Shown here: piece by piece, positions 3,824 to 30,716 of the stretch | How the letters are laid out: every line of letters starts with the position of its first letter | How positions within the stretch are numbered: position 1 is the stretch's first letter | NCBI GenBank assembly: GCA_027484315.1 | Contig: JAIXTE010000068.1 | Coordinates: forward strand, 1 to 34,524 | Origin: Burkholderiales bacterium | GTDB lineage: Bacteria; Pseudomonadota; Gammaproteobacteria; Burkholderiales; Burkholderiaceae_B | Direction of reading: 5' to 3' | DNA: 34,524 nt | Notes under the pieces: model-generated | Database searches by the model: none | What the model saw: the letters and a program-made list of their open reading frames with translations, nothing else | What the model was told of the DNA's origin: nothing | Program-made: the position numbers and the translations under genes

Positions 3824-4561
3824 CTACCGATCGAACCGAGGATCATCTTTGTTATAGGATCCCGTATTAGAGCTGGCCGATTTGATACGGCCAGGTTCCC
3901 AAAGAAGATATGAGTCGCCACCACCCTCAAAACAGTTTTCATAAACAATCGCGTGGTAGCCAAGAGTGTCCGTCAGAAAACTCATTAGGCCCGAGGTTTT
4001 CTCATATTGATCCGCATCTACCCAGGTAACCCCGTTGTCCAAGATCAGCTCATCATTATAAAAATCATCAAGCATCCGCATCGGTACCTCGATGGTATTC
4101 TGCTCCCCCAGTTCCATAATCTGCATCATGATATCGTCCACCCCCCACCTACCGGTGCGGGGCTCGCTTAGACGAAGAATGCGTGCTGCAGAGATGAAAA
4201 CGGGAATTACAAAGGATCCAGACTTCGAGGCAGAGACACCGTTGAACTCATCCTCTTTTTTCTTGACCTCAACTCGACGCTCCGCGGCCTCAATACTTCC
4301 AAAATGCGCTCCAAATTTACAATAAGAGTCCTCGCCATGATCAACACGGAATCGATCAAAGTAAGCTGAGGTTGAATGATACAAAACCAGTGGCAACCCC
4401 TTGTCGTCAACGATCTTTGACCCTGAGAACCAATCGTGGAACTTTGCGTTAGAGATGATCTTAAGAACCGATTCCTCCCCGATCTGAAAACTCGACTTTC
4501 CCGATTCAAGGTCAGTCAAGAAAGTTGACTTATACGGGCTATGTGACACCTTGATTTGCAT
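3824..4561 (-). CDS. ADP-ribosyltransferase-fold protein (polyvalent-protein ART type), diverged
   Basis: 245 residues. From residue 41 it follows the ART domain found in phage and plasmid polyvalent proteins: FHDWFSGSKIVDDKGLPLVLYHST, then FDRF, then a C-terminal SYLLWEPGRIKS and closing DDPRF. In the H-Y-E ART scheme the NAD-binding His is H62 (YHST) and the candidate Glu is E222. The usual Tyr position (GIYF in the neighbouring paralogue) is H86 here (GAHF), so activity may be altered or lost. It lies 11 nt after the paralogue on the same strand, behind a strong AGGAGGGGG site at ATG 4561. In known families such domains are thought to modify host proteins on entry; here they are free-standing. 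Substrate unknown. Confidence 0.75.
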   Translation of the reverse strand: MQIKVSHSPYKSTFLTDLESGKSSFQIGEESVLKIISNAKFHDWFSGSKIVDDKGLPLVLYHSTSAYFDRFRVDHGEDSYCKFGAHFGSIEAAERRVEVKKKEDEFNGVSASKSGSFVIPVFISAARILRLSEPRTGRWGVDDIMMQIMELGEQNTIEVPMRMLDDFYNDELILDNGVTWVDADQYEKTSGLMSFLTDTLGYHAIVYENCFEGGGDSYLLWEPGRIKSASSNTGSYNKDDPRFDR

Positions 4562-4572
4562 GGCGCCCCCTC

Positions 4573-5214
4573 CTAGCGATTAAATCTTGGGTCTAGCGGA
4601 TCGAAACCACCGGTATTTTTGATTGACTTAACCTGGCGTGGATCGAAAGCGATAATCTCCATCGATCCGTCAGGGTAGGTGCTCATGATCCCATCATGAC
4701 CTAGCTCCTTCAAAACGCCCGTGAACCGCGCATCGAGGAAGTTAAATTCACGTAAGGCCGCGTCATTCTTTGCCATTTCAAGGAGCGTCCTTCCATTGGG
4801 AAGAGCGAGAATAGCCTCGATTATTGGACAATCAAGATCCTCCTCAAATGCGCCCTGACTTTCGAAATCGGCTTTGACTACCCAGGGTTTCTGAATCGAG
4901 AGAAAAACGGCATGAATTAGCGCACTCTTGTCTTCGTGCACATAGCACTGCGCGCTATCAAGCGTGTCACAAAAATAGATGCCACTGCCATACGTTCCCT
5001 TTGGAGATACTTCGAAGGCATCGAAACGTTTGTTGGTTCCGTGATAAACGACCCTTGGGTCACCTGATTCATCAACAACGGCGGATTGCTTGAACCATGA
5101 GCGAAAGCTTTCCAGTTGCATGTAGTCTGCCCCAGATCGAAGACTTCTCGTGCCAATCGGCAGACCTTGTACCTCGAATGGAGTACCTAGCTTGGGTAAT
5201 GAAGTCGGGCTCAT
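4573..5214 (-). CDS. ADP-ribosyltransferase-fold protein (polyvalent-protein ART type)
   Basis: 213 residues from the chosen ATG. Domain order matches the paralogue downstream: FRSWFKQSAVVDESGDPRVV, YHGT (H58), FDAF, GSGIYF (Y80), then DGIMSTYPDGSMEIIAF (candidate Glu E186) and a closing GGFDPLDPRF. All three H-Y-E positions are present, so it may be the active member of the pair, transferring ADP-ribose from NAD+ to an unknown target. The start is uncertain: a TTG at 5247 extends it by 11 residues and an ATG at 5121 shortens it, and none has a strong ribosome site. It is probably cotranscribed with the gene at 3824. Confidence 0.75.
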   Translation of the reverse strand: MSPTSLPKLGTPFEVQGLPIGTRSLRSGADYMQLESFRSWFKQSAVVDESGDPRVVYHGTNKRFDAFEVSPKGTYGSGIYFCDTLDSAQCYVHEDKSALIHAVFLSIQKPWVVKADFESQGAFEEDLDCPIIEAILALPNGRTLLEMAKNDAALREFNFLDARFTGVLKELGHDGIMSTYPDGSMEIIAFDPRQVKSIKNTGGFDPLDPRFNR

Positions 5215-5327
5215 TGGTAAAGAATCGGGGAAAATTAGGAACCCCAAGATTACCGATCAGAAAAAAACGATGCCAGAAAACGGCCTCCCTGAACTTCAGA
5301 AAGGGCAACGCTAAAAATTAGACTGGC

Positions 5328-5935: not shown

Positions 5936-7156
5936 TCAGTGAAATCTTAAACTCGCCCCTTGAAGATACTCCAACGTTATATCGGCCCCAACCCAGTATC
6001 TATTTAGAGCCTCAGCACTTGCGCCAGTTACGCCAGAGCCAAAGCAAGGATCTGCGACCAAGTCACCCTCTTCGGTGCAAAGACGGATCCAGAAATCAAC
6101 CAACTCCTTGGGACACATAGCCGGGTGTCTTGGCAGCCCGGCTGCCTTTACTTTTTTGGAATAATCGCTGTACGCCGATTCATGGGTGATCTCGAAATAA
6201 TTCGGGGGGATCGATCCACCCAGGTCTTCTGCATAAGTGGACGCTGCCTTTGACTGACCACTGGGGGTTCTTGTATCAAACACCGCCTGACCCGAGGACT
6301 TGCGTTTTTGCTTTCTCTCGATTTCTGATTTATAGACCGATGAATATGGAACAAGAACTCTGCTCGTACGCACCTTCTGGTTGGTCTTCTCTACGTCCAA
6401 ACTAAACCACAAAACGTCTTCAACCTGGTTCTTTAGCCGACACTTGGGCGCACCCTTCACCCCGGTAGTAAAAGCACCCGTGGGGGGCCTCGCCGGGTTA
6501 CGCCAAACGCTGCGCTGAACCAGCCGCAAGCCTAAGTCCTGTCGAAGTCTCAACATGATCATTTCGGTGCTCATGGATTGTTCACCATGCGACCCGGCAA
6601 TTGTGTGGGCACCCAGATTCAGAACAAGCGAACCACCAGGAGCAAGAAGACCTACCCAGTGCGATACCATTCTCACAATTTGATCTACATACTCTTGCTC
6701 AGCAGCAGCAATTGTCCCGCCACCGTGGCCGTATGGTCTTGCTGTGAAATACGGGGGCGAGCAAAACACCAACGAACACTCCTCGGGGAATAGATCGGCA
6801 AGTCCCTCACCGGGGCCGAAGAAGGCCATACCCTTTTTCGTCACAAAGCCTACCTTCATCTCGCCGCCGGCGTGCTGCGAGAGACTCTTGTCCGACCTTC
6901 CCTTTTGAGTTACCACCCACTCCCCGGTCCTGTTCCCACGCTCAATCAGCCCCCTGCTTCGCAAACGGCTTTGAATGGAGCGTACGCGGTGCTCCCACTT
7001 AGAGCGCAAGCCCCACTTGCCCAGGTCAACCTTTTCGGCGCGGAACTCTGACTCGCCCAGGCCCATCAACGCCGCCACGTCGCTGTAGGCTGCCCTGGTT
7101 GAGCCGTTACGCTCAATCGAATTAAGGACTACAGACTCAAATAAGCTTAGCTGCAT
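5936..7156 (-). CDS. Site-specific DNA methyltransferase (SPPY type, N4-cytosine or N6-adenine)
   Basis: 406 residues, beta-class arrangement with the catalytic motif before the SAM motif. CSPPYF (132-137) is motif IV; SPPY is common in N4-cytosine enzymes but also occurs in N6-adenine enzymes. GGSLVLNLG follows, and DPCFGSGVTG (369-378) is the SAM-binding motif I. Residues 15-90 look like a winged-helix region, with helices rich in Arg and RSRGLIERGNRTGEWVV. The protein begins MQLSLF: residues 2-6 are an exact copy of the canonical clamp-binding pentapeptide QLSLF. ATG 7156 follows AGGTG and lies 8 nt after the stop of the gene at 7165, so the two are cotranscribed. No cognate nuclease is adjacent. 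Confidence 0.9.
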   Translation of the reverse strand: MQLSLFESVVLNSIERNGSTRAAYSDVAALMGLGESEFRAEKVDLGKWGLRSKWEHRVRSIQSRLRSRGLIERGNRTGEWVVTQKGRSDKSLSQHAGGEMKVGFVTKKGMAFFGPGEGLADLFPEECSLVFCSPPYFTARPYGHGGGTIAAAEQEYVDQIVRMVSHWVGLLAPGGSLVLNLGAHTIAGSHGEQSMSTEMIMLRLRQDLGLRLVQRSVWRNPARPPTGAFTTGVKGAPKCRLKNQVEDVLWFSLDVEKTNQKVRTSRVLVPYSSVYKSEIERKQKRKSSGQAVFDTRTPSGQSKAASTYAEDLGGSIPPNYFEITHESAYSDYSKKVKAAGLPRHPAMCPKELVDFWIRLCTEEGDLVADPCFGSGVTGASAEALNRYWVGADITLEYLQGASLRFH

Positions 7157-11760: not shown

Positions 11761-11966
11761 TAATCATCAATTTAGTTTTTAGCAAAAAAATGAACAAACC
11801 CCAAAATACTCTTGGATTAAAAAGAGATCTGCTTATAGGCAGAGGGGTTAACTCGTTATCAAGATCAAGGCTAATACCTTAATCTCTGGCCTAGGCTGCC
11901 AGAGGCGGCCCAGGCTCAAGAACCTCAAAAATTCCCAACGCCAAGCCGCCAAAAGCCGAAAGAAAT

Positions 11967-12040
11967 GCGGGTGTAGCTCAATGGTAGAGCTGAAGCCTTC
12001 CAAGCTTAAGACGAGGGTTCGATTCCCTTCACCCGCTCCA
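11967..12040 (+). tRNA. tRNA-Gly(TCC)
   Basis: GCGGGTG pairs fully with CACCCGC; the D-arm is GCTC/GAGC, the anticodon loop is CTTCCAA, and T plus encoded CCA follow. One anticodon-stem mismatch (27-43). It reads GGA/GGG. First tRNA of the array. Confidence 0.93.
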
Positions 12041-12056
12041 GTTATGTAGTTGAATT

Positions 12057-12078
12057 GCCGACCTGGCGAAATTGGTAG
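12057..12078 (+). other. Outer tRNA-Leu 5' half (acceptor strand plus half D-arm)
   Basis: GCCGACC-TG-GCG-AAATTGGTAG reads like the first 22 nt of a tRNA-Leu and then stops resembling one. Its 7-nt acceptor strand is the exact complement of GGTCGGC at the 3' end of the tRNA-Leu(TAG) body 220 nt downstream. The 5' half actually adjoining that body (GCGGTCG at 12219) pairs at only 4 of 7 positions. The D-stem behaves oppositely: outer GCG fits the downstream CAT poorly while inner ATG fits perfectly. Could be a relic, a distal exon, or one arm of a recombination site. Confidence 0.75.
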
Positions 12079-12218
12079 CAGTATAAACTTGTAGGCCGTG
12101 TACACCACCGCAGACCCTTCAATCATAAGGTTTTTGGGATTTGCAGCACTGTACATATGTACATGTAAGTTTTGATGTAAATTGAGTGTACGTGAACACC
12201 ATAAAATGTTCACGCAAA
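12079..12218 (+). promoter_or_regulatory. Segment between duplicated tRNA-Leu 5' halves, rich in GTAC palindromes
   Basis: 140 nt with no reading frame. It holds GTGTACAC (12098-12105), the 14-nt palindrome TGTACATATGTACA (12150-12163), and a perfect 8-bp inverted repeat CGTGAACA/TGTTCACG with an 8-nt centre (12191-12214). That last repeat encloses a TAAAAT -10-like box 11 nt before the inner tRNA start. The arrangement suggests a regulated promoter for the inner tRNA, or an excisable element. Confidence 0.5.
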
Positions 12219-12302
12219 GCGGTCGTGATGGAATTGGTAGACATGCTAGATTTAGGTTCTAGTGCCTTGTGCGTGAGAGTTCGAGTCTCTCGGTCGGCAC
12301 CA
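12219..12302 (+). tRNA. tRNA-Leu(TAG), acceptor mismatched
   Basis: Inner body: D-stem ATG/CAT, anticodon stem CTAGA/TCTAG with loop TTTAGGT, a long class II variable arm, T-stem GAGAG/CTCTC, discriminator A and encoded CCA. The 5' acceptor GCGGTCG against 3' GGTCGGC leaves three non-pairs (3-70, 5-68, 7-66). The full complement, GCCGACC, sits 162 nt upstream at 12057. Reads CTA/CTG if functional. Whether the mature RNA uses the inner or outer 5' end is unresolved. Confidence 0.8.
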
Positions 12303-12707
12303 AGAAAAAACGCGTGAAGCTTTCGGTGGATGAGCGCGAAACTTAGGCTGAATCCTAAAACGATTTGGCCCGGAGCAAATAGAGCGAGCAGATGTCGTCG
12401 GGCAAGATAAAGGTTGCAAGTTTCCCTTGTTGATGGCATCGAAACCGTTTGAAAATAGCTTGATCGTTGCCGCGGTCTGATTGGATAGGCCGCAAGCTCG
12501 GTATGAATCACCGGGGGCAGGCAATGGCGGATTATCGTAACCGCCTGTTTTGCTCGCCGCCCTGAACTGTCGCAGAAGACAGCAGGGCGGACTGATGCAA
12601 ATTGACTTAAAGATAAGAGATTTGATTGCCAGATTTAAGTGCTTTGGGAAGTCGTGAGACGTCCTGCTAGAGAATTTAAATGTGGTGATTTAAAGCCGAA
12701 AATTTTA
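12303..12707 (+). ncRNA. Possible structured non-coding segment within the tRNA array
   Basis: 405 nt without a credible gene. Several strong hairpins lie in its second half: GCGGTC/GGCCGC near 12463-12490, GGCGG/CCGCC with inner TTA/TAA (12525-12544), and CCGCCCTG/CAGGGCGG (12557-12590) with a second CTGTC/GACAG stem inside. No T-run follows, so these are not terminators. It does not match tmRNA, RNase P or SRP RNA signatures that I know. Could be a stable RNA or processing structures. Confidence 0.35.
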
Positions 12708-12797
12708 GGAAGCTTGGGTGAGTGGTTTAAACCAGCGGTCTTGAAAACCGCCGAGGATGTGAGTTCTCCGAGAGTTCGAATCTCTCAGCTTCCGCCA
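12708..12797 (+). tRNA. tRNA-Ser(TGA)
   Basis: GGAAGCT/AGCTTCC acceptor, anticodon stem GCGGT/ACCGC with loop CTTGAAA, long variable arm, discriminator G and encoded CCA. All stems fit. Reads TCA. Confidence 0.93.
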
Positions 12798-12807
12798 GAT
12801 TTTACGT

Positions 12808-12882
12808 GCCGCCGTAGTTCAATGGATAGAACACGATCCTCCTAAGATTGAGATGTGGGTTCGATTCCCGCCGGAGGCACCA
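12808..12882 (+). tRNA. tRNA-Arg(CCT)
   Basis: GTTC/GAAC D-stem, anticodon loop CTCCTAA, T-stem GTGGG/CCCGC, A plus CCA. The acceptor GCCGCCG/CGGAGGC has one G-A mismatch (4-69). Reads AGG, a rare codon in GC-rich proteobacteria. Confidence 0.88.
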
Positions 12883-12907
12883 GGATTACGCAAGAAGAAA
12901 AATAACC

Positions 12908-12984
12908 GGATCGATAGCTCAGCCGGTCAGAGCAGGCGACTCATAATCGCTTGGTCGGGGGTTCAAGTCCCTCTCGATCCACCA
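12908..12984 (+). tRNA. tRNA-Ile(CAT), lysidine-type
   Basis: GGATCGA/TCGATCC acceptor is perfect. The anticodon arm GGCGA-CTCATAA-TCGCT and following TGGTCG closely match the E. coli minor tRNA-Ile, whose C34 is converted to lysidine by TilS, rather than elongator tRNA-Met. It would therefore read ATA. CCA is encoded. Confidence 0.85.
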
Positions 12985-13004
12985 GTTTGTTGTTGTAAGG
13001 AACT

Positions 13005-13081
13005 CTGCCCATAGCTCAGTTGGATAGAGCAACGGCCTTCTAAGCCGTAGGTCCCCTGTTCGAGCCAGGGTGGGCAGGCCA
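13005..13081 (+). tRNA. tRNA-Arg(TCT)
   Basis: CTGCCCA/TGGGCAG acceptor, D-stem GCTC/GAGC, anticodon stem ACGGC/GCCGT with loop CTTCTAA, T-stem CCCTG/CAGGG, discriminator G and encoded CCA. All stems perfect. Reads AGA. Confidence 0.95.
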
Positions 13082-13120
13082 GATTACTTAATACCGCTCC
13101 CCGGGTGGTGAAATTGGTAG

Positions 13121-13244
13121 TAATCCAAAGTACATTATATGTACATGGTTCAAAAACCGCTTCTACTAAGGGATTGCAAGAGAAACGAGTTGTACACGGA
13201 AGCGTTAAACTTTCATGTACAAAAAAGAAGTATAATGCACATAT
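13121..13244 (+). promoter_or_regulatory. Segment between duplicated tRNA-Leu(TAA) 5' halves
   Basis: 124 nt without a gene. It contains GTACAT-tat-ATGTAC (13130-13144), TTGTACA (13190-13196) mirrored by TGTACAA (13216-13222), and TATAAT (13231-13236) placed so transcription would start at about the inner 5' half (13245). The -35 match is poor, which could mean activator dependence. Its organisation resembles the segment at 12079-12218. Confidence 0.5.
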
Positions 13245-13264
13245 GCGACTGTGGTGAAATCGGT

Positions 13265-13482
13265 AAACATATCTGCCCTTCCACGTAGCAATACGTGGTT
13301 AGAAGAGCGTAAATTGCGGGGAACCCTAAGTTCTTATCGAATATGGCAATCCGCAGCCAAGCCTTTGTAGAAATACTAAGGAAGGTTCAGAGACTATAAT
13401 CGCTCCATCCCTAGTGGATGATGGGATAGTCCAGCGCACAACGAGCGTAAATGCTTGGCCAGGGAAACTTGGAGTGTGAAAG
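13265..13482 (+). ncRNA. Group I self-splicing intron in tRNA-Leu(TAA) D-loop
   Basis: All core elements are readable. P1 pairs GGTA (13262-13265) with TGCC (13274-13277), giving a U-G at the splice site. P2 is CCACGTA-GCAA-TACGTGG (13281-13298), P3 is GAGCG/CGCTC, and P4 is TGCGG/CCGCA with P/Q elements TTGCGGGGAA and AATCCGCAGCC. R is GTTCAGAGACTAT and S is ATAGTCC, pairing as P7. P8 is CATCC/GGATG and P9 is CCAGG-GAAA-CTTGG. The last base is G, then exon AGACAC. P10 TCT/AGA supports this junction: TCTGCC is complementary to ligated GGT-AGA. At 218 nt it is close to the compact tRNA introns of bacteria (Anabaena/Azoarcus type). No homing endonuclease is present. Confidence 0.92.
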
Positions 13483-13586
13483 AGACACAAGAGACTTAAA
13501 ATCTCTCGCTCATTGCGAGCGTACCGGTTCGATCCCGGTTCCGGGGACCAGTTTTTGAATGCAGAAGAATCACTTAGCTAGAGATT

Positions 13587-13672
13587 GCCGATGTGGTGGA
13601 ATTGGTAGACACGCCATCTTGAGGGGGTGGTGGCCACAGGCTGTGCGAGTTCGAGTCTCGCCATCGGCACCA
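13587..13672 (+). tRNA. tRNA-Leu(GAG)
   Basis: GCCGATG/CATCGGC acceptor, D-stem GTG/CAC, anticodon stem CCATC/GGTGG with loop TTGAGGG, long variable arm, T-stem GCGAG/CTCGC, A plus CCA. Uninterrupted, unlike the other two tRNA-Leu genes. Reads CTC/CTT. Confidence 0.93.
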
Positions 13673-13705
13673 ATCCTGATTCTTACGAAAAACAGAGCGA
13701 GTGAA

Positions 13706-14017
13706 ATGGCCAAGACTTATTCCTACGAAGAACCAACAGAATACAAGGTTGGTGTCCCAGAACAAAGACCTTTGGCGCCCTCAAACAGCGGGGAATTTGT
13801 CTTTGTAGGAGGCGTCCCATTTGCAGAACACCAAAAACGACAAGCAATGCCCACTCGCTCTCTTCGGCAGGAAGATGTTCCAAACGAAATTTGGAATGCC
13901 GGCTACGATCAATATTCTCTGCGCGATGACGGCGCAATTATTTCCAACAACGGAAACGAATTGGGTTGGGTGGATACAGACAAGGGGTTGATTCTCTGGT
14001 GCAAAGCTGGGTTCTAA
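13706..14017 (+). CDS. Hypothetical protein, 103 aa
   Basis: A longer frame begins upstream but runs through tRNA-Leu(GAG), so the ATG at 13706 after GAGCGAGTG is chosen. The N-terminal half is Pro/Glu-rich and probably flexible (YEEPTEYKVGVPEQRPLAPS); the C-terminal half is compact and aromatic (NEIWNAGYDQYSLRDDGAII). No signal peptide, membrane segment or recognised family. It directly follows the tRNA array and may be read from the same transcript. Confidence 0.55.
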   Translation: MAKTYSYEEPTEYKVGVPEQRPLAPSNSGEFVFVGGVPFAEHQKRQAMPTRSLRQEDVPNEIWNAGYDQYSLRDDGAIISNNGNELGWVDTDKGLILWCKAGF

Positions 14018-16403: not shown

Positions 16404-16481
16404 TGGTTGCGGATGGTCGGATTTGAACCGACGACAAAAGGGATATGAGCCCTCTGCTCTACCAGGCTGAGCTACACCGCA
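16404..16481 (-). tRNA. tRNA-Met(CAT), bulged acceptor
   Basis: D-stem GCTC/GAGC, anticodon arm GAGGG-CTCATAT-CCCTT, T-stem GTCGG/CCGAC, encoded CCA. The 3' acceptor strand CATCCGCA has one extra T relative to the complement of TGCGGTG, so the stem carries a bulge. The anticodon arm does not match the lysidine tRNA-Ile pattern at 12908, so elongator Met is more likely. Confidence 0.75.
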
Positions 16482-20194: not shown

Positions 20195-21148
20195 GTGGCT
20201 TCTCTCTCGAAACTTGCTATTTTTGCATCAAGTAGAGCAAAAAGAAGACGCCAAATGAAAGTGATTGGGAAGTGGAAGAACACAACTGAAAGACTCCTTA
20301 TGAGCAACCCAGGCCTACTTCGGATGCCCGAGGACGCCCTGGGTCGCAGGCTAAGCATATCTGACGACATAGACCTTCCTCGAATGGCTCGTATGTTTGC
20401 CAACAAGGCTCACCCGCCCCAGTCGATGGCTGAAAGGGCTGCGAAGCTGTACCAGGGGCTTTTTGATGACACAATCATTGAGCGCTTCATTTGCCCGATC
20501 ACCGAGATCTCAAGATTCAGGTCACCAGGGATCAGCGAGTCTTACATGTCCTGCCTAGACCGCTACGCAAGAATCGAATGCGCAGACCTGGTTTCAATAC
20601 CAAGCACATACGGGTTAACCCAACTATTGAACTCTCCAGACCTGCGGGATTCCGTTGCTTCTGGGAAGATGTCTCTCGTTAGAAAAAAATGGGACTACAG
20701 ACTATGCCTAGACAACGAGGCTAACTTAGATACGTTCATAGCCACTCGATACATGGCAAAACATTTGGGTGTGGAAATTACCCTTCCCTTCGCTCTCAAG
20801 GAAATCTCCTTGTCACCTTCGGCTAGTGAACAATTCAACGAACAGTTCCAAGCAATATTGATCAACTCAAAAAACCCCGTGGACTTCAATGAGATGACCT
20901 CGTTCTTGTCACTCAAAGGATGTCATTTTTTATACCAGGGACTCCCGGAGTCATCACTTTGCTTAATCCTACTCGATAGGCAACATACCGCATCAAACGA
21001 AATAGGAACCGAATTAAAAAATAGGGGCGCGTTTGATTTCAATGATCTGCTCGACGAAATGCTTGCCGACCAAATGGTGAACATCAGGCAGAACAGGGTC
21101 ATCGATCCATCCAGCGAGAAAACAAGCAGCCCTCTTATGGCTGCGTAG
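20195..21148 (+). CDS. Hypothetical protein, 297-317 aa
   Basis: The frame opens with GTG at 20195 without a ribosome site; an ATG at 20255 (protein starting MKVIGKWKNTTERL) is equally possible. It is mainly helical with repeated Ser/Leu/Arg-rich segments (RMARMFANKAHPPQSMAERAA, IERFICPITEISRF, MAKHLGVEITLPFALKEISL) and no signal peptide. Two CxxxRYAR-like stretches occur but no catalytic motif is evident. Probably the last gene of the dnaN unit, 43 nt after its neighbour. Function unknown. Confidence 0.6.
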   Translation: MASLSKLAIFASSRAKRRRQMKVIGKWKNTTERLLMSNPGLLRMPEDALGRRLSISDDIDLPRMARMFANKAHPPQSMAERAAKLYQGLFDDTIIERFICPITEISRFRSPGISESYMSCLDRYARIECADLVSIPSTYGLTQLLNSPDLRDSVASGKMSLVRKKWDYRLCLDNEANLDTFIATRYMAKHLGVEITLPFALKEISLSPSASEQFNEQFQAILINSKNPVDFNEMTSFLSLKGCHFLYQGLPESSLCLILLDRQHTASNEIGTELKNRGAFDFNDLLDEMLADQMVNIRQNRVIDPSSEKTSSPLMAA

Positions 21149-23360: not shown

Positions 23361-24518
23361 ATGGACGAAGCGGAGAAGCCAAATAAGATAAATTTCTTGG
23401 AAGAGCGGGACGCCTCCCTTCTGAGGATGACGTTGAACGCCTACAAGAATCTCCACACTGCTTACGTGCGAATGAAGCAAACCCAACCTAACCTGAGCAA
23501 CGAGGTTGAGTACTTTTCAAGAACTGTAAGCCCCATCGAAAAACAACGACGACGAGCAGAGAGGATTTCTTTTGCATCAAATCTGGGGTATCAATTTGGC
23601 GCATCTCGACGGGATCCAGAAGGCAGGTTTGACCACCTGGATGACGAACTGAAACGTGAGATTTTCTCAGGACTTGAAAAGGGTGAATCAGATCCAAGGG
23701 AATTTCTTAACCCGTACTCCAGTAAGCTACTATTCCTCCGTGCGAACGCCTTCGCGAAGGGCCGCTTCTGCGACCTAGACATGAGCCCAGACGACCTCAA
23801 AAGAATCACCCCTGACTACTGTCCTATATTGGGGACTCGTTTATCCATACATACTGGAAACGAAATCCACCAAGACGAACGACATCAATGGTCAGTTGAG
23901 CGGATGTGTAACAGCCTTGGGTACGCAAAGGACAATATTGCAGTTATCTCTACCGCGGCCAACGCGGCGCGGAGTAACCTGAACGCCGAACAGATCCTGG
24001 AACGTGCGGCCGGCGTGGTCATCGATAATCAGCTCACCCAGATTCAGTGGTGCCGGCTACTTAACCACCACTATTCGAGCTTGAGGCTTGAAAACCCCTA
24101 CCTTCGACAACTTGACCCTCCTGTTACCTGGACAGCTCCTCGATACAGCAAGGTTGATATGAGGTTTATTGCACATTCGATATCCAATCCACACGCAGGA
24201 TCACGGTATCGGATAGATGCCACCGCCGACATGCTATCGGAGTATTTCAAGCTGGCCGGGAAATCCAGCGATGATTCAGTTCGCGCAGCAAAGGCTTTCA
24301 AGAAGGAATGCTCCGTGCTCTCACGGGTGACAGAGGTAGAAACAGAGGTGAACCTGATTTACATCACAGCCCAGACTTCGAATAAACAAATGATCAACCA
24401 ACTAGCGAAGGACGTATATGGGAGTGATTACCTTGAAAAAAGGGACCTGGGAGAGGCCGACAGGAGACTAATTTCCAAAGCTTCATCCGCTGGGTGTAGC
24501 ACCCGGTGGGGCATCTGA
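23361..24518 (+). CDS. HNH-endonuclease-like protein, putative
   Basis: 385 residues. At about 155-220 it has TPDYCPILGTRLSI, then WSVERMCNSLGYAKDNIAVI and AANAARSNLNAEQILERA. This matches the layout of phage and plasmid HNH-fold proteins in which CPxxG is followed by an S(L/V)(D/E)R-GY-x-NI-x-VIS-x-AN-x-x-(K/R)S motif. The usual Asp-Arg (DRI) is ER here and no clear catalytic His precedes it, so activity is doubtful. The C-terminal ~150 residues are mostly helical. ATG 23361 follows GAGGG. It could cut DNA or only bind it; nothing nearby settles this. Confidence 0.6.
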   Translation: MDEAEKPNKINFLEERDASLLRMTLNAYKNLHTAYVRMKQTQPNLSNEVEYFSRTVSPIEKQRRRAERISFASNLGYQFGASRRDPEGRFDHLDDELKREIFSGLEKGESDPREFLNPYSSKLLFLRANAFAKGRFCDLDMSPDDLKRITPDYCPILGTRLSIHTGNEIHQDERHQWSVERMCNSLGYAKDNIAVISTAANAARSNLNAEQILERAAGVVIDNQLTQIQWCRLLNHHYSSLRLENPYLRQLDPPVTWTAPRYSKVDMRFIAHSISNPHAGSRYRIDATADMLSEYFKLAGKSSDDSVRAAKAFKKECSVLSRVTEVETEVNLIYITAQTSNKQMINQLAKDVYGSDYLEKRDLGEADRRLISKASSAGCSTRWGI

Positions 24519-30687: not shown

Positions 30688-30716
30688 TTGACATTGATGT
30701 ACAAAAATTGTACGAT
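30688..30716 (+). promoter_or_regulatory. Helicase promoter with GTAC palindrome
   Basis: TTGACA (30688-30693), a 17-base spacer and TACGAT (30711-30716). The perfect palindrome GTACAA-aaa-TTGTAC (30698-30712) fills the spacer and touches the -10 box. Its 6-3-6 form matches the palindrome in the tRNA-Leu(TAA) insert (13130-13144). Confidence 0.75.

Follow-up and report, generated by a model that had tools for sequence, protein, structure and literature searches.

The question raised by this stretch of DNA (34,524 nt, referred to here as the window) is why two of its tRNA-Leu genes, with anticodons UAA and UAG, each carry two 5′ halves, an outer and an inner one. The initial annotation read this arrangement as a working split-tRNA system. 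The parts of the two loci are as follows.

13099–13118, + strand: outer 5′ half of the UAA locus, CCCCGGGTGGTGAAATTGGT, a resident-type 5′ end of tRNA-Leu(UAA)
13120, + strand: left junction of the UAA locus, in the D-loop, directly after GGTAG
13121–13244, + strand: UAA leader joining the outer to the inner half, with three TGTACA words
13245–13264, + strand: inner 5′ half of the UAA locus, GCGACTGTGGTGAAATCGGT, the 5′ exon of a phage-type tRNA-Leu(UAA), 48/48 when taken with 13483–13510
13483–13550, + strand: UAA 3′ exon with anticodon UAA, ending TCCGGGGACCA
12057–12076, + strand: outer 5′ half of the UAG locus, GCCGACCTGGCGAAATTGGT, starting GCCGACC, which pairs 7/7 with the 3′ strand GGTCGGC
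12077–12218, + strand: UAG leader, with three TGTACA words
12219–12238, + strand: inner 5′ half of the UAG locus, GCGGTCGTGATGGAATTGGT, starting GCGGTCG, with 4/7 acceptor pairing
12239–12302, + strand: remainder of the UAG tRNA with anticodon TAG, ending GGTCGGCACCA

Recomputation of the acceptor pairing at the UAA locus, with G-U pairs allowed, bore out the earlier claim that the outer half, beginning CCCCGGG, pairs fully with the 3′ strand TCCGGGG (7/7) and the inner half, beginning GCGACTG, does not (2/7). Heptamers able to pair 7/7 with the 3′ strands of the two loci are rare, occurring at 67 and 84 of the 34,518 window positions. The outer and inner halves start 146 nt apart at the UAA locus (13099 and 13245) and 162 nt apart at the UAG locus (12057 and 12219), in agreement with the offsets first reported. 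ARAGORN called the UAA outer half joined to the 3′ half as a complete tRNA-Leu(taa) and did not accept the inner half joined to the same 3′ half. The outer halves begin 16 and 17 nt past the end of the preceding tRNA, similar to the gaps of 10, 25 and 20 nt in the tRNA array running from tRNA-Ser at 12708 to tRNA-Arg at 13005, and no decay was seen in the outer acceptor strand of either locus. The third tRNA-Leu (GAG) was correctly described as normal, since the tRNA scan calls an ordinary tRNA at 13587–13672. Elsewhere in the window, the roughly 400 nt between tRNA-Leu(UAG) and tRNA-Ser (12303–12707) yielded neither a tRNA call nor an Rfam family above threshold, and an Rfam tRNA match of 55.5 bits on the − strand at 16408–16480 was not called by ARAGORN.

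Analysis of the UAA locus indicated, as judged from its sequence, that the inner and 3′ halves are separated by a group I intron, predicted to be self-splicing, that was absent from the initial annotation.

13265–13482, + strand: group I intron of 218 nt in the D-loop at GGT^AGA (best placement)
13272–13277, + strand: internal guide UCUGCC, in which GCC pairs with GGU of the 5′ exon and UCU with AGA of the 3′ exon

The Rfam model RF00028 matched 13222–13445 (model positions 1–253) with 57.2 bits against a gathering threshold of 50, the core being aligned with high confidence from about 13315 and the 5′ end of the match more weakly; this was the only RF00028 match in the 4.0-Mb assembly. The placement has a U at the 5′ splice site and a G at the intron 3′ end (GGT/AAAC...AAAG/AGAC), and the guide forms 6/6 pairs with GGU^AGA, one of them U-G, covering both exons (P1 and P10), with a short P1 of GGU, or GGUA if the first intron base is counted. 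The alignment with a homologous intron, that of the Shigella phage Moonfish RNAP2 gene, begins at window position 13264 (95/134), which places the first intron base directly after the GGT of the inner half. The 3′ boundary was marked in a search of 60 genomes with the UAA locus, which gave matches in 47; of the 49 rows from outside the window, 44 started at query position 385, equivalent to 13483, the start of the 3′ exon; all five of these loci that were inspected (L006–L009 and L014) were tRNA-Leu(taa). No ORF of at least 90 aa is listed within the 218 nt.

The exons themselves support the same splice sites. The inner-half pattern retrieved 74 viral contigs, ten of which (L143, L146, L159, L162, L165, L170, L171, L179, L189 and L200) carry a tRNA-Leu(UAA) identical at 48/48 positions to the inner half plus the first 28 nt of the 3′ exon, and this identity to a phage-type tRNA-Leu(UAA) places the splice sites at the D-loop GGT^AGA. 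In the 26 of the 74 contigs with a GCGACTG acceptor strand, the 3′ partner was CAGTCGC in 23 and CAGTCGT in one, and two had no tRNA; the search of a phages collection for near relatives gave one match, a tRNA-Leu of EBPR podovirus 3 (97.6 percent over 41/48 nt). The 3′ exon is identical to the phage type at its start and resident-like from the variable arm onward. The tRNA-Leu(UAA) on contig C49 of the same assembly, presumably a chromosomal contig, starts GCCCGGGTGGTGAAATTGGTAG and runs GCCCGGGTGGTGAAATTGGTAGACACAA ... GCGTACCGGTTCGATTCCGGTCCCGGGCACCA, close to the UAA outer half and to the 3′ end in the window, GCGTACCGGTTCGATCCCGGTTCCGGGGACCA. These sequence comparisons make the UAA locus a hybrid: its two ends are of the resident kind, and what lies between them is phage-type.

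A different product would result if the UAA ribozyme used the outer GGU (13118), excising a 364-nt intron to yield a perfect resident-type tRNA-Leu(UAA); the leader and inner half would then form a 146-nt extension of the intron, with the inner site a decoy or a switch. The ARAGORN calls and the 7/7 outer acceptor fit such distal splicing, and the guide region binds the outer GGU no less well than the inner one (−6.3 versus −4.3 kcal/mol, bases on both sides counted). Against this, the guide lies 7 nt from the inner site and 153 nt from the outer, the homologous intron starts at the inner site, the 48/48 exon identity marks the inner half as a natural exon, and the UAG locus, which shares the layout yet lacks a group I match, would need another route. 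We consider distal splicing unlikely, and still more doubtful is its extension to a two-promoter tRNA switch, in which read-through from upstream would lead to distal splicing and functional tRNA and an inner promoter would give an acceptor-less anticodon RNA. If such a switch were true, the inner RNA could act, for example, as a decoy for tRNA-cutting nucleases, and the UAG locus would be a second, intron-free version of the module.

At the UAG locus no group I intron was matched, and its leader gave no Rfam match at E ≤ 1. ARAGORN calls a tRNA there at 12218–12302 (Rfam tRNA, 34.7 bits), accepting the inner form with a one-base shift and the outer forms too, so the case for a dead UAG gene rests on the 4/7 acceptor. 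The 3′ strand of its D-stem, CAT, pairs with the inner ATG and not with the outer GCG, which argues against a simple outer-plus-3′ product at this locus. An ATG/CAT D-stem is present in viral tRNA-Leu(UAG) genes (e.g. L153), and the nearest body among the loci compared is that of L063, from a bin of the same genus, whose tRNA-Leu(UAG) agrees at 64/73 positions. At this locus too, the donor tract probably extends from the leader into the body of the tRNA, and the acceptor end belongs with the outer half.

The combination of a 7/7 outer acceptor with an inner ATG/CAT D-stem raises a further alternative that suits the UAG locus, a bulged tRNA in which the outer acceptor joins the inner D-arm and the leader is looped out between positions 7 and 8, with later trimming to a tRNA that is either in two pieces or joined. 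In the minimum-energy fold the outer acceptor is base-paired to the 3′ end, and ARAGORN accepts the outer acceptor plus inner D-arm as tRNA-Leu(tag). However, this fold is only weakly better than those of shuffled sequences (z −1.65; 11 of 200 shuffles did as well), a donor tract that entered the tRNA body would produce the same D-stem match, and we know of no bacterial enzyme that removes such an insert and joins the ends. We regard a bulged tRNA as very improbable.

Comparison of the two loci confirmed much of the common architecture that the initial annotation had proposed: both left junctions follow GGTAG, the outer half matches the 3′ acceptor strand at each, and a TATAAT or TAAAAT box precedes each inner half by 8–11 nt. 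The inner halves agree at 19/26 positions, one fewer than the 20 of 26 originally counted, and the likeness did not extend to a significant longer alignment of the leaders. The boxes were located as follows.

13216–13236, + strand: promoter-like box TGTAC-N10-TATAAT of the UAA locus, 8 nt before the inner half
12187–12207, + strand: promoter-like box TGTAC-N10-TAAAAT of the UAG locus, 11 nt before the inner half

The pattern TGTAC-N7..12-TAWWAT, picked after inspection of both sequences, has two matches in the window where 0.10 would be expected, both with N = 10 and both at these loci; the whole assembly holds nine matches, including these two, against three for the reversed control pattern. 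Among 260 tRNA-Leu 5′ halves compared (duplicates included), the box lies ahead of only the window's two. A sigma-70 scan of 11800–13800 found no promoter on the + strand, so the box is promoter-like solely by its −10 element and its position. The three TGTACA words were reached in 0 of 2000 dinucleotide shuffles of the UAA leader (13119–13244) and in 1 of 2000 of the UAG leader. A TGTACA also occurs within a promoter-like TTGACA...TACGAT site at 30688–30716, between divergent ORFs.

Such short motifs are the sole standout likeness between the leaders, and three broader interpretations of them were not supported. Homology of the leaders as a single sequence was not demonstrated: their local alignment was matched by 594 and 549 of 1000 shuffles, and the global one, though weak, by 105 and 59. 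They did not appear to be strongly structured RNAs, their folds being only mildly stable (z −1.76 and −2.00). Nor did they resemble the natural upstream region of phage-type tRNA-Leu genes: TGTACA occurred within 200 nt upstream in 6 of 72 such halves (two more with less than 30 nt upstream were dropped), and on raw scores none of these 72 upstream regions stood out as a relative of either leader.

To place the intron, we searched 399 genomes of the same order with RF00028; 40 matched, and 29 loci besides that of the window were inspected. The intron lay in the anticodon-loop region of a tRNA at 28 of these 29 (27 by ARAGORN, which seeks introns only in the anticodon loop, and L389 by eye), and the remaining locus (L361) had no tRNA. 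By blastn (E ≤ 1e-3), the window intron matched none of these 29 introns, but it did match all four introns taken from the phages collection, as well as 17 of 38 viral contigs and three further viral loci, suggesting that it is closer to phage-gene introns, although the viral sequences had been retrieved by words of the window intron or of group I cores and are a biased set. Junction-pattern scans for a second D-loop group I intron gave 51, 49 and 14 contigs, none of them confirmed; an artificial join yields a tRNA at L300, L310, L321, L322 and L341, the last of which on inspection held tRNA fragments and no group I match above threshold. Anticodon-loop group I introns in tRNA genes are described in PMC5733544 and PMC8450103, and the literature covered, mostly titles and the openings of abstracts with few subscription journals, mentioned no bacterial tRNA with such an intron in its D-loop. 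Separately, a phage-type GCGACTG tRNA-Leu(UAA) at L207 (reverse complement from 8346) appears by eye to carry a group I intron in its anticodon loop.

We also scanned for the outer/inner pattern in one genome from each of 84,980 species and in viral contigs. The species scan gave 33 matches. In 17 of them an intact tRNA-Leu is preceded by a tRNA-Leu 5′ half that is incomplete; of the other 16, five had a complete first tRNA, ten had no inner tRNA and one was not tRNA-like. Among the 32 viral matches, 14 had a complete first tRNA, 12 had no inner tRNA, and in six the outer half ahead of a tRNA-Leu was incomplete or unlike, that of L104 being barely tRNA-like. Orphan tRNA-Leu 5′ halves are thus not rare; a search of the kind first proposed for duplicated halves elsewhere did find them, in 17 species and six viral cases, but neither scan returned the module seen in the window. 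In 17/17 species cases and 6/6 viral cases the inner half is fully paired (7/7) with the 3′ strand of its own tRNA, and none of these 23 showed a 3′ strand fitting the outer half only.

These orphan halves, which in several bacteria sit 128–158 nt upstream of an intact tRNA-Leu (D-loop to D-loop), raise the possibility of site-specific integration, by which an element carrying a phage-type tRNA-Leu 5′ half entered both D-loops and was mostly lost later, leaving leader-sized remnants bounded by attL/attR-like ends. A displaced tRNA fragment is present at the loci, and the repeated TGTACA words could be recombinase arm sites. In addition, the viral loci L141 and L147 carry a tRNA-Leu 5′ half up to the anticodon loop followed by other sequence, and these halves may be attachment sites. 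Yet in 13 of the 17 species cases the orphan half keeps its tRNA likeness as far as the anticodon loop, with the other four (L221, L223, L235 and L238) departing just after the D-loop, and no integrase match was found among the 20 of 57 listed ORFs scanned. The rebuilt gene, moreover, lacks acceptor pairing, whereas integration generally, if not always, restores a matching tRNA (PMC10865867). Integration thus seems to us improbable, to much the same degree as distal splicing.

Several of the loci retrieved had features of their own. The tRNA-Leu(CAA) regions L223, L235, L238, L230 and L221 have a 5′ half, altered in L221 and L230, before an intact tRNA-Leu(CAA), and, just after the D-loop of that half, several hairpin-like stretches with AGGA in the hairpin loop (GCAGGATGC, GGACAGGACGTCC), which we take to resemble CsrA-binding sponge RNA; Rfam found only tRNA in the four examined (L223, L235, L238 and L230). 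In L219 (Galbibacter, reverse complement), three tandem tRNA-Leu 5′ halves with D-loops at 6425, 6502 and 6579 are separated by an identical short spacer, and one 3′ half ends the series. The viral loci L103, L106 and L088 hold tRNA-Leu-like genes with odd, enlarged anticodon regions and no ARAGORN tRNA.

The sequence comes from a draft bin (155 contigs, 5.38 percent contamination) in which tRNA-Leu repeats might have produced false joins. However, the D-loop stretch common to the halves is about 15 nt long, with mismatches, and usual assembly words are longer than that; the same layout and box also occur at two loci 1 kb apart. An assembly artefact is therefore highly improbable.

The contig itself is phage- or plasmid-like, with ORFs that include a DnaN clamp, a UvrD-like helicase and DNA methylases; searches of viral contigs by way of DnaN or the helicase found no relatives of the replicon, and the tRNA matches suggest that the host of the replicon is betaproteobacterial. 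The Pseudomonas megaplasmids pMPPla107 and pBASL58 were rejected as relatives, their sole link being the DUF6685 protein (24.8 and 29.6 percent identity), encoded in the window at 20195–21148 and with a relative in 14 plasmid records, all from Pseudomonas. These megaplasmids have 54 and 45 tRNA matches and no group I intron, and nine tRNA-Leu genes in the stretches inspected look ordinary. The window also has an endonuclease-like ORF at 23361–24518 (PHROG endonuclease match, 7.2e-15), possibly a free-standing nuclease, and, on the − strand at 3824–5247, two adjacent ORFs with ART-PolyVal ADP-ribosyltransferase domains.

The reading we favor, with a probability of roughly 0.57, is that recombination turned the two loci into hybrid tRNA-Leu genes, scars that are most likely non-functional or nearly so. 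The UAA inner half is a phage-type 5′ exon, parted from its 3′ exon by the intron, and similar recombination into two resident tRNA genes would explain the layout in place of the split-tRNA system first suggested. A break or recombination event may have occurred in the D-loop of resident tRNA-Leu genes, the break falling at GGT^AGA, the site of the intron, and its repair drawing on a phage-type tRNA-Leu copy. The right end would have been copied by homology and the left end joined, after GGTAG, to leader sequence 125–140 nt upstream of the donor tRNA. The leader and donor 5′ half are indeed present as insertions at both loci, with the intron in addition at UAA, and this process could have put them there. 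The intron is predicted to splice at the inner GGU^AGA, giving an inner-plus-3′ RNA without a proper acceptor stem and leaving the resident acceptor half stranded upstream.

It is because the inner products lack a proper acceptor stem that we read both loci as recombination scars, and the contrast between outer pairing of 7/7 at both and inner pairing of 2/7 (UAA) and 4/7 (UAG) favors this. Loss of both genes would be tolerated because the chromosome supplies leucine tRNAs. The orphan 5′ halves that precede an intact tRNA-Leu in 17 of the 33 species matches indicate that 5′-half scars do arise, but the parallel is incomplete, since the inner half pairs 7/7 in every comparison case, unlike in the window. 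The intact outer acceptor strands count against a scar, as a dead scar need not keep them, and no donor combining leader, tRNA and D-loop intron was found in the scans made.

The two loci show partial likeness to several known systems. Bacterial tRNA group I introns, found in the anticodon loop of tRNA-Leu(UAA), tRNA-fMet and tRNA-Ile2, share with that of the window a core over the Rfam threshold, the U before the intron and G at its end, and the host gene tRNA-Leu(UAA), but the window's lies in the D-loop after GGT. Introns of phage genes (Moonfish RNAP2, Pseudomonas phage ZC08, Vibrio phages 1.193.O and R16F) are 71–77 percent identical to it over the aligned parts, yet they adjoin or interrupt protein genes rather than a tRNA gene, and Moonfish has an HNH endonuclease ORF between its two RNAP parts, whereas no ORF of 90 aa or more is listed in the window intron. 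Islander-type islands and tRNA-dependent lysogeny likewise strand a tRNA 5′ fragment beside a rebuilt tRNA gene, and PMC10865867 describes phages whose integration disrupts a tRNA of the host and which provide one of their own; the window differs in its D-loop junction, the mismatched acceptor of the rebuilt gene and the 120–140 nt between. Archaeal split and permuted tRNAs also have parts that are not contiguous in the DNA, but here the parts lie on the same strand at the same locus, with one extra 5′ half, in a bacterium.

In sum, the range of landing sites known for group I introns would grow with one that sits in a tRNA D-loop. The GGU^AGA sequence recurs in tRNA-Leu D-loops and is present in many other tRNAs, so a D-loop intron could spread among tRNA genes. 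The locus illustrates recombination within a gene between phage-type and resident tRNA genes, hybrids that tRNA finders allowing introns only in the anticodon loop miss. Distal splicing, if real, would mean a ribozyme that chooses between two tRNA 5′ halves.
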